Assembly (NCBI GenBank): GCA_003552125.1
Contig: PUON01000074.1
Span: forward strand, 1-41,954
DNA from: Dehalococcoidia bacterium
GTDB lineage: Bacteria; Chloroflexota; Dehalococcoidia; GIF9; AB-539-J10
Direction: 5' to 3'
DNA length: 41,954 nucleotides
Under the pieces are notes generated by a model. That model did no database searches. It was given only the letters and a program-made list of their open reading frames with translations, and was not told the DNA's origin. Positions 2,719-9,002 of the stretch are shown here, piece by piece (the first letter of the stretch is position 1; each line of letters begins with the position of its first letter). The position numbers were made by a program, and so were the translations under genes.

Positions 2719-5700
2719 TCAGTCTATACGCCTGAGGCCAAGGGTCAATTCATTGCCGTCGAGTTTCAGAGTCTGAGAGTGGGCATCTTCCGGAGGCTGC
2801 GCATTCCGCAATTCCTGGCTCAATGTCTCCTGGCGTATATACTCATCGAACGCCTCGAAAACCTGTTGCAGAATCCCACTGCCGGAATAGAAGACAACGA
2901 TGTGGTCGGATATCTCCAACTCCGCCGAGCGCCGCATCATCTGCAAACGCCGCACGATCTCACGCGCGAAGCCTTCAGCTACAAGTTGGTCGGACAGCTC
3001 GGTCACAACACCCACTCGATAGCGCTCGTCGCTGGAAACGGCAAACCCCGGTTCCTCATCCCCCAGCGCGGCAGTCAACTCCACATCCTTCACATTGAGT
3101 TCATCCTTGATGTGCTCAATCAGCGCGGCAACACCTGTCCTCTCATTCTCTAGCGGAATCTGGATTCTTGCAACGGACAGCGGCTGTCTGACCTTGATGC
3201 CAGCCTTGGCCCGCGCAGCACGTCCCAAACTCGCCAGGTTCATCACCAACTCCATATCTCGGTTCAGTGCCTCATCAATCTCACCGGTCACGGCCACCGG
3301 GTAGTCAGTCAGATGTACACTCTCAGGTGCACACTCATCCACAGAGCGTACGATGTTCTGGTACACCTCTTCGGTGATGAAGGGTGCGATTGGCGCGAGC
3401 AGTCCAATGGTAGTCGTGATACAACGGTACAGCGTCTCGTGCGCAGCCAGCTTATCATCGTCATTCTCGCTCTTCCAGAAACGGCGCCGACTGCGCCGCA
3501 CATACCAGTTGGATAACAGATCAATGAACTCCTCGACGCGCCTAATCGCCTGAGTGAACGCGTACCCATCCATGGCGTTCGTCACATCGAGCACCAGCTG
3601 GTTCAACTCCGAGATAATCCATCGATCGAGCTCAGCCAAAGACCCGCTGCATTGCTGTCCGGGAACAAATCGGTCGATATTGGCATACAGGACGAAGAAC
3701 GAATACGTGTTCCATAATGTCAGCAAGTGACGCCGCATCGTCTCGGACAGGACCTGCAACGAAAAGCGATGGGTGTTCTCCGGAGGCACGGATGAGAGCA
3801 TATACCAGCGAACAGCATCTGCACCGTACTCGTTGAACACCATCCACGGATCGATGATGTTACCTTTAGACTTGCTCATTTTCTCGCCATTCGCATCAAC
3901 CACGTGACCAAGGCAATGGACATTCCTGAAGCATGGGCCGTCGAACACCATCGTCGACAGCGCGTGAAGACTGTAGAACCATCCTCTGGTCTGATCGATT
4001 GCCTCGGTGATGTAGTCAACAGGAAACATCTGCGAGAACGTATCCTGGTTTTCGAACGGATAGTGCCACTGCGCCCAGGTCATAGCTCCAGAGTCAAACC
4101 AGCAATCAAGTACCTCAGGAGCCCGCTGCATCCTGCCACCGCACTTGGAGCAAAGATACGTTACCTCGTCGACATAGGGACGATGGAGCTCTATGTAATC
4201 TTGGAAACCCTCGACACCGGGTTTGGATGCAATCTCGGCACGGCTGCCGACACACTCGAACTCACCACATTCAGGACACTCCCACACAGGTAGCGGAGTC
4301 CCCCAGTAGCGCTCACGAGAGACCGCCCAGTCAACGTTATTCTCAAGCCAGTCGCCGAATCTGCCATGCTTGATGTATTCGGGAAACCAGTTGATCTCCT
4401 GGTTTCCGGATACGAGGCGCTCCTTCTTGGCAGTAGTCTTGATATACCACGATCGCTTGACGTAGTACAGAAGCGGGGTGGCACAGCGCCAGCAAAAAGG
4501 ATACGTGTGCTTAATGGTTTCACTCCGGAACAGCAGCCCCCGATTTCTCAGGTCATCGATTACATCGGGATCGGCCTCTTTCACGAACTTCCCGGAGAAC
4601 GGATATGTGCCGGTCACCTTGCCGTCTAGATCGACCTGCTGCACGAAATCGAGGCCTTCCTTCTTACCAGCCTCAAAGTCCACTTCACCAAACGATGGCG
4701 CAATATGAACAACCCCCGTACCATCGTCGAGCGAAACGAACTCGGCGGTGATCACCGGATACGTCAGTCTGTCCGGCTTCTCCTGCGATTCAAATGAAGG
4801 CATGGACAATCGCATCACACCGTAATCGTGAGGATCGAACAGAGGTTCGTATCGGAGTCCTGAGAGACTCGCTCCCGATACCACGCCAACACGTTCGTAA
4901 CCGGTCACACCTACGGTATCGATGAGCGTGGCCGCCATAATGAGATGTTCGGATTCTCCCGCGAGCACCGCATACTCGGCATCCTCCGAGATCGCGAGCG
5001 CGGTGTTTCCAGGCAGCGTCCACGGAGTGGTGGTCCAGGCCAGAAGGAAGACATCCCCAAACTCATCTCCAAGAATCTCACGCAGTTCAACCGAAGACTG
5101 TGCCAGTGCCTCAGAAGTGATGCGGAACTTAATATATACGGATGGGTCTTCAGTATCCTCCTCGTAACCCAGCGCCACCTCGTGGGAGCTTAACGATGTC
5201 CCACATCGCGGACAGTGTGGTGTCGTTCTATACCCTCGATAGACCAGGCCCTGGTCCCAGAGCTGCTTGATGGCCCACCACCCTGACTCAATGTAATCAT
5301 CCTTCAGGGTGATGTAGGGGTCGTCCATGTCGATCCAGTGACCGACACGCTCTACCATTGTCTCCCATTGCCGAATGTATTTGAACGCACTCTCCCGGCA
5401 ACGCTCATTGAACGCTGCCACGCCATATTCTTCGATCTGTTTCTTACTCTTCAGGCCAAGAGTGTGTTCAACCTCCAGTTCAACCGGCAACCCGTGAGTG
5501 TCCCAGCCAGCCTTACGCGGGGCGTAGAAGCCACGCATGGCCTTGTAACGGCACGGCACGTCTTTGAACAGGCGGGATAGCACATGGTGTATGCCAGGGC
5601 TGCCATTGGTGGTCGGGGGACCGTCGTTGAAGCTGAAAAGAGGCTGGCCGCGCCGCTGTTCGAGACTCTTCTCGAAGATGCCGTTATCCTTCCAGAACCG

Positions 5701-5757
5701 AAGAGTCTCAACCTCCATGTCAGGGAAGCGAGCCTTGGAATCAACAGCTCTAAACAT
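2719..5757 (-). CDS. ileS: isoleucyl-tRNA synthetase, type 2 (IleS2-like)
   Basis: 1012 aa; 'GWDTHGLPVELEVEHTLGLKSKKQIEEYGVAAFNERCRESAFKY', 'HCPRCGTSLSSHEVALGYEE', 'WTTTPWTLPGNTALA', KMSKS in 'NGEKMSKSKGNIIDP'. Confidence 0.97.
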   Translation of the reverse strand: MFRAVDSKARFPDMEVETLRFWKDNGIFEKSLEQRRGQPLFSFNDGPPTTNGSPGIHHVLSRLFKDVPCRYKAMRGFYAPRKAGWDTHGLPVELEVEHTLGLKSKKQIEEYGVAAFNERCRESAFKYIRQWETMVERVGHWIDMDDPYITLKDDYIESGWWAIKQLWDQGLVYRGYRTTPHCPRCGTSLSSHEVALGYEEDTEDPSVYIKFRITSEALAQSSVELREILGDEFGDVFLLAWTTTPWTLPGNTALAISEDAEYAVLAGESEHLIMAATLIDTVGVTGYERVGVVSGASLSGLRYEPLFDPHDYGVMRLSMPSFESQEKPDRLTYPVITAEFVSLDDGTGVVHIAPSFGEVDFEAGKKEGLDFVQQVDLDGKVTGTYPFSGKFVKEADPDVIDDLRNRGLLFRSETIKHTYPFCWRCATPLLYYVKRSWYIKTTAKKERLVSGNQEINWFPEYIKHGRFGDWLENNVDWAVSRERYWGTPLPVWECPECGEFECVGSRAEIASKPGVEGFQDYIELHRPYVDEVTYLCSKCGGRMQRAPEVLDCWFDSGAMTWAQWHYPFENQDTFSQMFPVDYITEAIDQTRGWFYSLHALSTMVFDGPCFRNVHCLGHVVDANGEKMSKSKGNIIDPWMVFNEYGADAVRWYMLSSVPPENTHRFSLQVLSETMRRHLLTLWNTYSFFVLYANIDRFVPGQQCSGSLAELDRWIISELNQLVLDVTNAMDGYAFTQAIRRVEEFIDLLSNWYVRRSRRRFWKSENDDDKLAAHETLYRCITTTIGLLAPIAPFITEEVYQNIVRSVDECAPESVHLTDYPVAVTGEIDEALNRDMELVMNLASLGRAARAKAGIKVRQPLSVARIQIPLENERTGVAALIEHIKDELNVKDVELTAALGDEEPGFAVSSDERYRVGVVTELSDQLVAEGFAREIVRRLQMMRRSAELEISDHIVVFYSGSGILQQVFEAFDEYIRQETLSQELRNAQPPEDAHSQTLKLDGNELTLGLRRID

Positions 5758-5759
5758 CT

Positions 5760-6395
5760 CTAGCGCCCCTTTGGATGAATAACGACCTTCCGCTCAATCT
5801 CCTCACCAACGCTCTCGGTATACACATCAGGATGATTCGCAAGTGCAAGATGAACGACACGACGTTCATCCGGCGGCATGGGCTCAAGCGCCATGGATCT
5901 GCGACGGTATCTGGCCTGATCGGCCAGTTTTCGCGCCAAATCTTCCAGGGCAGTGTATCGCCGTCTCTTGTATCCACACACGTCTATAGAGAGCGCCGGC
6001 CAGTCAGATTCGCGCGATGCGATGATCAGGCGCACTAGATGCTGCAGTGCAGACAGTGTCATCCCACGGCGCCCAATGAGGACACCGAGGTCATCTCCCT
6101 CGATATTGAGCACTATCGAGTCCGCCACCCGTTCACATATAACCTCGCCGTCAAGCTCCAGAAGGCCCAGAATCTGTCGCACTACCTCAGCACCAATCTC
6201 AGCACTGCGGTCGTATACCGCGCCAGGCTGAGGATCGTCAACGAGTTCTTCGATATCGAAATCGTGGGGTGTGGTTTCTTCTACAGCAGCATCATCTGCC
6301 GCACCGTCTGCGTCACCTTTTCGGACGGATTCTGCCGCCATCTGCAGTGGACCATCATCGTTGTGATCACTCACGTCAGGGTCAGGATCGTACAT
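5760..6395 (-). CDS. jag: Jag/KhpB-like RNA-binding protein (KH + R3H)
   Basis: Adjacent to yidC; 'DDLGVLIGRRGMTLSALQHLVRLI...DVCGYKRRRYTALEDLARKLADQARYRRRSMALEPMPPDERRVVHLALANHPDVYTESVGEEIERKVVI'. Confidence 0.93.
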   Translation of the reverse strand: MYDPDPDVSDHNDDGPLQMAAESVRKGDADGAADDAAVEETTPHDFDIEELVDDPQPGAVYDRSAEIGAEVVRQILGLLELDGEVICERVADSIVLNIEGDDLGVLIGRRGMTLSALQHLVRLIIASRESDWPALSIDVCGYKRRRYTALEDLARKLADQARYRRRSMALEPMPPDERRVVHLALANHPDVYTESVGEEIERKVVIHPKGR

Positions 6396-6438: not shown

Positions 6439-7194
6439 CTAGCTGGGCTTGGTAACAGCCTTTGACGCGCCACGCCGCAGGTAACCCCATCCACCACCGA
6501 CTACGTACTGCGTACCAATGCCAATAAGATTCGATATAAGCCAGAAAAGTGGCAGGCCGGCCGGGAACATTATAGTGAAGAGGCCGAACATGAGCGGCAT
6601 CATCATGAGCATCATCTGGTTCGTCGATGCCTGCCTGGGATCTGGCGACGGTGGCGTCGTCATCTTCTGTTGTACGAACATGGTGCCACCAACAAGAATG
6701 GCCAGGATCATAGTGGTATCGGGTTGTCCAAGATCAAGCCAGAGGAAACTGCTGTTCACGGGAATCGCCCTGGCAATCGTCTCAGATCTATACAGGTGCT
6801 GAGAGAGGTCAAGGAGGTTCTCAGGGGTTGTCGCCAGCGTCTTGATGATAGACTGGTACAGCGCGATCCAGACAGGAAACTGGATAAGCATGGGCCACAT
6901 GCACCCGACAGGGTTGATCCCTGCCTCCTTGTACAGCTTCATCGTCTCCTGCTGGAGCTTCGCCTTATTCTTCGCGTACTTCTTCTGCAGCTCCTTCATC
7001 TTGGGCTGCAGTTCCTGCATAGACTTCATGGACTTCGTCTGTTTGATGGTAACCGGAGTCAGCACCAGGCGCACAACGATAGTGAAGACAATGATGGCCA
7101 GTCCAAACTCAATCGCGCTAGGCATTGCCCCGGACAGCGCAATAAGGCTGTTCATGGCAGGGCGCAGTATGATTACGTTCCATACTTCGATCAT
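6439..7194 (-). CDS. yidC: YidC/Oxa1 membrane protein insertase
   Basis: 'FTIVVRLVLTPVTIKQTKSMKSMQELQPKMKELQKKYAKNKAKLQQETMKLYKEAGINPVGCMWPMLIQFPVWIALYQS' is the family signature. Confidence 0.96.
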   Translation of the reverse strand: MIEVWNVIILRPAMNSLIALSGAMPSAIEFGLAIIVFTIVVRLVLTPVTIKQTKSMKSMQELQPKMKELQKKYAKNKAKLQQETMKLYKEAGINPVGCMWPMLIQFPVWIALYQSIIKTLATTPENLLDLSQHLYRSETIARAIPVNSSFLWLDLGQPDTTMILAILVGGTMFVQQKMTTPPSPDPRQASTNQMMLMMMPLMFGLFTIMFPAGLPLFWLISNLIGIGTQYVVGGGWGYLRRGASKAVTKPS

Positions 7195-7202
7195 CTAGTG
7201 CA

Positions 7203-8420
7203 TCACTCCATGTCCAAAGGGAAACTATACGCGACGGACCGTGCCACCGGATCTATCGCGAAGAGAACGTTGTTCTGTGCACGCACGTACACCAGCCCGT
7301 CCAGATAAAGGGGAGATGCGACGACTTCCGCGTTCACTGTGGAAGCTCGGTCCCTCGTCGGATCAGGGACTCTTGCACCCATACCTGACGCGCGATCCAC
7401 AACATGAACGTCGCCGCTCTGAGAAACCACTACTATGCTGTCGTTTGCCAGCACAGGACTACCTGCGATCGAATCATCAGTATCGTACGGCTCCACCCAT
7501 CGGGCGACACCGGTCTCGCGATCCAGAGCATACAACATGCCGTCCAGAGACGCAGCATAGAGCACATCATCAACAATCAGCGGAGTAGACCAGAACCAGT
7601 TGTTGGCATGGAATTCCCACGCTTTGGTCTCCGCACCAAGTGGAACTGCGATCAGGCTCCTGTTGAAGGTGCCGACGTACAGAATGTTCCCAACTATAAC
7701 TGGAGAAGACACGAACCCGAACTCTCCTTCATACGACCACGGCAACGTCTCTCCCGTCGCGGCATCAAGGGAATAAACGTGTCCATCAAAGGTGCTCACA
7801 TACACTACTCCGTCGCTCACCGCCGGAGTCACCCAGAGTTTTCCATCCAGGTGCTCGGACACCCACAATTCATCGCCGTAGGCACGGTCGAGAGCATAGA
7901 CAACTCCATGCGTCCGGCCACGATCTGAAACGGAGCTCGCTACGAACACTTTGTCTTCGTAAACTGTCGGATCACCCACGATCGGACCGATCGAATCATC
8001 TGTTCTCGGATACATCCACTCGCCCGCACGCAGTTGAGGGAAACTCATCCCAGCAAGCCGCGCATCAGGATCCAGCATCAGCACCTTACCATCATAGGTT
8101 CCTACACAGATGTGGCCATCGGTCAGCACCGGCGTAGCGTACAAGGTTGATGCGACTTCAGAAGTGCCACAGCCGAATGTACCCCTCACAAGTGTCGTAA
8201 CAGGATAAGCCCATTCCTCGGTAGATGGAAATGGCTCTCCAGCTGCCCGGGCAGACGGGTTCACTGCCAGTATCTGTCCATCAGCTGAGCCGACGTACAG
8301 GTGCTCACCGTCGCTGACGATACCCGCAAACCCCTGCGCTGCCGGCGCTGCGCAGCCGAAAGTCGAAGCCGCAACAAGAATCGCTGCCAACGCGATCAGA
8401 GGCAATCTAACAGACTTCAT
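7203..8420 (-). CDS. PQQ-like beta-propeller repeat lipoprotein (BamB-like fold)
   Basis: Lipobox 'AASTFGCAAP'; repeated 'LYVGSADGQILAVNP', 'HICVGTYDGKVLMLDP', 'VYVSTFDGHVYSLDAATGE', 'LYAASLDGMLYALDRETG'. The track starts at a TTG at 8423; ATG at 8420 overlaps the yidD stop (TGATG). Confidence 0.88.
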   Translation of the reverse strand: MKSVRLPLIALAAILVAASTFGCAAPAAQGFAGIVSDGEHLYVGSADGQILAVNPSARAAGEPFPSTEEWAYPVTTLVRGTFGCGTSEVASTLYATPVLTDGHICVGTYDGKVLMLDPDARLAGMSFPQLRAGEWMYPRTDDSIGPIVGDPTVYEDKVFVASSVSDRGRTHGVVYALDRAYGDELWVSEHLDGKLWVTPAVSDGVVYVSTFDGHVYSLDAATGETLPWSYEGEFGFVSSPVIVGNILYVGTFNRSLIAVPLGAETKAWEFHANNWFWSTPLIVDDVLYAASLDGMLYALDRETGVARWVEPYDTDDSIAGSPVLANDSIVVVSQSGDVHVVDRASGMGARVPDPTRDRASTVNAEVVASPLYLDGLVYVRAQNNVLFAIDPVARSVAYSFPLDME

Positions 8421-8662
8421 CAATTCGTAACACGCATCCTCTCAGTGGATTCAATGGTAGCGGAGGGAACCGGGTCATATCGTGACTGAGAAAAGGGATG
8501 ACACCTGCACAATCTGTACACTCCGAGGGTAAGACCCCTCAGAACACCGTGCCGCTCGATGCTTTCAGCCATATATTCTGAGCACGTAGGCTGGAACCGG
8601 CAACGATGAGGAGTCACCTCAGAAATTGTCCTCTGGTACAGACGAACCACTGCAATGGCCAT
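8420..8662 (-). CDS. yidD: YidD membrane protein insertion efficiency factor
   Basis: 'MAIAVVRLYQRTISEVTPHRCRFQPTCSEYMAESIERHGVLRGLTLGVYRLCRCHPFSQSRYDPVP'. I trimmed the start from 8740 to the ATG at 8662 to match the family N-terminus. Confidence 0.92.
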   Translation of the reverse strand: MAIAVVRLYQRTISEVTPHRCRFQPTCSEYMAESIERHGVLRGLTLGVYRLCRCHPFSQSRYDPVPSATIESTERMRVTN

Positions 8663-9002
8663 CGAGGCAATCCGACGTGCATACGCCGGCTCGCACGAGT
8701 AGTTCCCGTAATTCGCGTTCGAGATCTCGGTACTCTGCACTCTGTATACTCGTTCGGGCGATCACCACCACATCCCAACCCGGTGGTACCGCCCGGATAT
8801 TGGTTGCCGCTCGAATGCGCCGCTTGGCGCGGTTGCGTACCACGGCGCCTCCCACTTTCTTTGATACCACCACACCGAGACGACTCACCCCAAGACCGTT
8901 GGGAAGCACCCTGACTACCATCATCGATCCCGCATAACTCCGCCCTTGGCGAAACACAGCAACGAACTGTTCACGCCTGGTGAGAGACCACGGTCTGTTC
9001 AT
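8619..9002 (-). CDS. rnpA: ribonuclease P protein component
   Basis: 'LTRREQFVAVFRQGRSYAG...VSKKVGGAVVRNRAKRRIRAA...DVVVIAR'; between rpmH and yidD. Confidence 0.95.
   Translation of the reverse strand: MNRPWSLTRREQFVAVFRQGRSYAGSMMVVRVLPNGLGVSRLGVVVSKKVGGAVVRNRAKRRIRAATNIRAVPPGWDVVVIARTSIQSAEYRDLERELRELLVRAGVCTSDCLDGHCSGSSVPEDNF

Follow-up and report, generated by a model that had tools for sequence, protein, structure and literature searches.

A GIHH class I signature in the housekeeping type 2 isoleucyl-tRNA synthetase of an uncultured Dehalococcoidia bacterium and its predicted relation to mupirocin resistance

Isoleucyl-tRNA synthetases (IleRS) of type 2 in which the class I signature HxGH is replaced by G/AxHH show a mupirocin Ki raised by about 200- to 10^3-fold (Brkic et al. 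2023, PMC10485003). The ileS gene located in a 41,954-nucleotide contig of a Dehalococcoidia bacterium (here called the window, contig C135) encodes GIHH at this position, which raises the question of whether the motif is a true swap, whether the gene is a housekeeping or an acquired copy, and what the enzyme's response to the drug would be. The reading to which a probability of roughly 0.88 is assigned is that the gene encodes the housekeeping IleRS2 with a G/AxHH motif, made resistant to mupirocin by a clash of His57 with the drug; from this we infer the Ki and the insensitivity of the organism. The published active-site swap is thereby extended to the sole IleRS of an uncultured Dehalococcoidia, as a clade-wide trait.

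The gene (positions 2719..5757, minus strand) encodes a protein of 1012 amino acids, assigned to ileS by TIGR00392, the Pfam domains PF00133, PF08264 and PF19302, and matches in the PDB. Residues G55, I56, H57 and H58 are encoded by the codons GGC ATA CAC CAT on the minus strand (5595..5584, that is 5584..5595), as the original prediction had stated and as translation and alignment confirm. In phmmer comparisons with solved structures, the stretch DGPPTTNGSPGIHHVLSRLFKD aligns without gaps with 1ILE, the Thermus IleRS2 (HVGH), and with both the wild-type Priestia megaterium IleRS2 (PmIleRS2) and its mutant 8C8W (GVHH). GIHH is thus placed directly on HVGH of the former and on GVHH of the latter, with glycine at the first position and histidine at the third and fourth, and on these alignments the register of the motif is regarded as certain. 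The first long catalytic helix (H57-74) of the AlphaFold2 model (mean pLDDT 90.7, input of 28 sequences) bears residues 55-58 at its N-terminal tip. A true HIGH motif elsewhere in the protein is ruled out by the alignment and the model.

The second class I signature, KMSKS, described as intact in the original prediction, is indeed so by sequence and alignment (residues 626-630, 3868..3882, minus strand). The T-rich editing peptide WTTTPWTLPGNT spans residues 241-252. Asp360 (4678..4680, minus strand), invariant in 28 of 28 sequences of the alignment (A1), is probably the post-transfer editing aspartate, a role described in PMC4861432, and would correspond to yeast D334 and S. griseus D333.

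The swap is specific to IleRS, since the MetRS of the window reads HLGH and the ValRS, LeuRS-like and CysRS-like proteins of the same genome keep HVGH, HIGH and HMGH, respectively. The nearest named relatives are Dehalococcoidia MAGs at 75-84% identity, three of which bear CSSed isolate names. All close relatives show the same four residues at this place, so GIHH is not a product of chance or of sequencing error. As the window is just one of the 175 contigs of a draft genome, one might suspect an error of sequencing or assembly, or else a paralogue that is inactive and degenerate; such an origin is nevertheless hardly credible, as the identical motif is found in those independent MAGs and the open reading frame is full-length with all other conserved residues kept.

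The assignment to type 2 in the original prediction is supported by several lines of evidence. The protein scores 915.7 bits against TIGR00392 (cut-off 621.4) and contains the IleRS2-type C-terminal domain PF19302 (DUF5915, residues 901-1010). By the signatures defined in PMC4861432, it carries the eukaryote-like, IleRS2-type HYPFE (residues 565-569, 4051..4065, minus strand), while the IleRS1 signatures NKIL and SSL are absent. In a quick LG+G4 tree with the motif columns masked, the window IleRS is nested in a Chloroflexota IleRS2 group together with the Thermus thermophilus and P. megaterium IleRS2 (SH-aLRT 99), and the IleRS1 of E. coli, S. aureus and P. megaterium are grouped in a separate clade (SH-aLRT 100); the branches at the root of this tree are long and its deep order is uncertain. 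The best PDB sequence match is 1ILE, followed by PmIleRS2. The top fold matches of the AlphaFold2 model are the PmIleRS2 structures 8C8V, 8C9D, 8C8W and 8C8U, and the match runs along a PmIleRS2 structure whose C-terminal domain is fully resolved.

The position of the gene and its copy number bear on the choice between a native gene and an acquired one. ileS is the last gene of the same-strand cluster rnpA-yidD-PQQ-yidC-jag-ileS. Directly upstream of it, across a 2-nt gap, lies jag/khpB with KH and R3H domains (5760..6395; PF01424, PF13083; synteny), preceded by the membrane insertase gene yidC/oxaA (6439..7194; PF02096; synteny), a gene for a PQQ/BamB-like beta-propeller protein (7203..8423; PF13360; synteny), yidD (8420..8740; PF01809) and rnpA, encoding the RNase P protein (8619..9002; PF00825), all on the minus strand. 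The yidD and rnpA frames (8420-9002, minus strand) overlap by about 120 bases with the listed GTG start of yidD, and a later start is possible. Nine further loci (L007-L012, L016-L018) have this cluster upstream of their ileS, and two more (L047, L048) have it with gaps that are slightly wider, which gives 11 other Dehalococcoidia or Chloroflexi loci with this synteny.

The draft genome (2.09 Mb, 94% complete, 3.4% contamination) contains a single ileS, and the remaining hits are the ValRS, LeuRS-like, MetRS and CysRS-like genes, all with canonical HxGH. The second ileS that an acquired resistance might involve was not found in this 94%-complete genome, and the completeness and contamination values leave a small chance that one was missed. 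A DNA pattern search of nine genomes, covering the organism and its relatives, detected no canonical HxGH IleRS. Because ileS is single and its synteny with the rnpA-yidC-jag operon is conserved, the window ileS is the vertically inherited housekeeping gene, in agreement with the original prediction, which had placed it at the end of a large essential operon and taken it as probably the housekeeping rather than an acquired copy.

It could be argued that a MupA-like resistance copy has joined or replaced the native ileS, because the NCBIfam models of MupA, a plasmid-borne homologue, and of MupB match the protein with 832.8 and 785.3 bits. These scores are, however, far under the MupA family cut-off of 1900 bits, identity to plasmid MupA is just 42%, and the protein is monophyletic with those of other Dehalococcoidia. 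Acquisition was rejected on the single copy, the synteny and the MupA/MupB scores, and is considered very improbable.

The published kinetics provide the basis on which the behavior of the housekeeping enzyme may be predicted. Millimolar Ki values are reported for two natural G/AxHH IleRS2 enzymes (PMC10485003, PMC4861432). The Ki of DrIleRS2, with natural ALHH, is 6.6 mM and falls 823-fold, to 8.1 uM, on the change to HVGH (PMC10485003); the S. griseus IleRS2, with a non-canonical motif (PMC10485003), has a Ki of about 10 mM (PMC4861432). The reverse change, from HVGH to GVHH, raises the Ki from 0.20 to 35 uM in the T. thermophilus IleRS2 and from 1.08 to 460 uM in PmIleRS2 (PMC10485003). The enzymatic background matters, because the engineered motif gave just micromolar values in these two enzymes. 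In IleRS1, the same swap abolishes activity (PMC10485003).

The proposed mechanism relates to the displacement of the motif helix in IleRS2, which allows the third residue to be bulky. For mupirocin to bind, the helix must shift back, and the histidine at position 3 then clashes with the drug (PMC10485003). The window IleRS has all the sequence features that this mechanism requires; binding of mupirocin would push its motif back and lead to a clash of His57 with the drug. The Ki of the window enzyme would probably lie between high micromolar and millimolar values, and we infer a value above 0.1 mM. Judged from its published relatives, the purified enzyme is very probably mupirocin hyper-resistant. 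The hyper-resistance foreseen in the original prediction thus stands as regards the motif, which is the published swap (Brkic et al. 2023), and the enzyme type, and is carried over to the window enzyme itself by analogy. A literature search for Chloroflexota IleRS together with mupirocin returned no paper, nor did it turn up an assay of this protein or of another Chloroflexota IleRS; Chloroflexi sequences are mentioned near the early IleRS2 branch in PMC10485003.

The distribution of the motif shows that it is far from a peculiarity of one genome. A strong match was found in 357 of the 393 genomes of the class, usually one per genome. At the level of the phylum, a DNA pattern that allowed either HxGH or GxHH had a match in 186 of 400 genomes, and among the matches listed, read by eye, every IleRS2 was GxHH except in five genomes (G014, G050, G441, G471, G506). 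When 30 pattern-negative genomes were searched with TIGR00392, a single ileS was recovered from each of 29 at the threshold applied, and every one of these reads G/AxHH. GxHH is thus close to fixed in the sampled Chloroflexota, and GIHH is an old, lineage-wide trait, fixed and probably ancestral in the lineage of the window. The swap announced in the original prediction is real, and it is normal in Dehalococcoidia and in most sampled Chloroflexota. This near-fixation is what the present analysis adds to published work; it is a useful data point and less of a surprise.

Several variants of the motif were also observed. Chloroflexi bacterium RBG_13_51_18 (L013), in a Dehalococcoidia clade adjoining a GIHH sister, has ALHH, as does Deinococcus radiodurans. 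One genome of the same order as that of the window (G325, locus L068) reads GIHL; the fourth histidine is leucine there, which may reflect a damaged copy or an error of sequencing. HYGT, with threonine in place of the fourth histidine and with intact KMSKS, is found at three loci (L028, L030, L036) of Candidatus Moraniibacteriota and one other bacterium. Two Dehalococcoidia genomes of family f17 (G014, L112 and G050, L114) have a HYGH IleRS that groups with Spirochaete and Patescibacteria enzymes, and the other members of this family have a GVHH/MHKS-type IleRS, which suggests replacement by gene transfer in the two.

Because GxHH is nearly fixed in Chloroflexota, recent mupirocin selection is unlikely to be the cause of GIHH in this organism. 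The motif may instead be an alternative catalytic form of ancestral origin that drift or an unrelated constraint has fixed, with resistance as a by-product in a lineage where mupirocin never acted as a selecting agent. This explanation, which concerns the evolutionary reading and not the biochemistry, is given even odds. It agrees with the near universality of GxHH in the sampled Chloroflexota, its presence in two deep IleRS2 clades and the lack of catalytic cost in the wild-type ALHH DrIleRS2 (PMC10485003), but it cannot be told apart from selection in the distant past by an antibiotic resembling mupirocin, and selection is the explanation favoured by the published authors (PMC10485003). The motif is clade-wide, and intrinsic target-level mupirocin insensitivity is therefore expected for most sampled Chloroflexota. 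Such a distribution bears on the question of whether the motif began as drug resistance or represents an alternative catalytic design.

A second deep IleRS2 clade (SH-aLRT 100), distinct from that of the window and devoid of HYPFE, carries the stretch DGPITANNPM-G/AVHH-AWGRTYKD. In this clade KMSKS is changed to xMHKS: the first lysine is lost, and E, P, A, D, Q or R takes its place. Its hosts are other Dehalococcoidia and Chloroflexota families (L109-L132 except L112 and L114; L149-L176), Marinimicrobia and Parcubacteria (L037, L041-L043 for the latter two), and in most genomes checked the xMHKS type is the sole ileS. The literature searched, to which the published figure comparing both motifs did not belong, yielded no paper that mentions such an MHKS loop in isoleucyl-tRNA synthetase. 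This side finding may be more novel than GIHH of the window and, if true, would mean that both class I signatures are altered in a sole, essential synthetase. Tentatively, and with odds somewhat below even, GxHH may be ancestral and nearly fixed throughout Chloroflexota, within two deep IleRS2 clades, of which the one not containing the window is also xMHKS. If true, the swapped motif would be a phylum-wide alternative catalytic solution, and resistance would be its side effect rather than an adaptation of scattered species.

Both the GxHH form of IleRS2 and its association with hyper-resistance have been published before, and the window enzyme joins that group. Its counterparts are the IleRS2 of D. 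radiodurans (ALHH) and S. griseus, housekeeping enzymes with the same architecture and with motif residues 1 and 3 swapped; the window enzyme differs in its Dehalococcoidia origin and in having GIHH where that of D. radiodurans has ALHH. In two actinomycete relatives, the 22-residue motif stretch is near-identical to that of the window. The closest solved sequence, the T. thermophilus IleRS2 (1ILE, 48% identity in the fold alignment), shares the catalytic layout and HYPFE, but has the canonical HVGH and the Ki of 0.20 uM given above. The best fold matches are those of PmIleRS2, in which the tip of helix alpha-1 is displaced by a shift of 1.7 A. The motif arrangement of 8C8W is that of the window; however, 8C8W is a laboratory mutant with engineered hyper-resistance, and the natural PmIleRS2 has HVGH. 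Staphylococcal MupA is likewise IleRS2-related and confers mupirocin resistance, but it is a plasmid-borne second copy with the 42% identity noted, and the window protein scores far below the MupA family cut-off.
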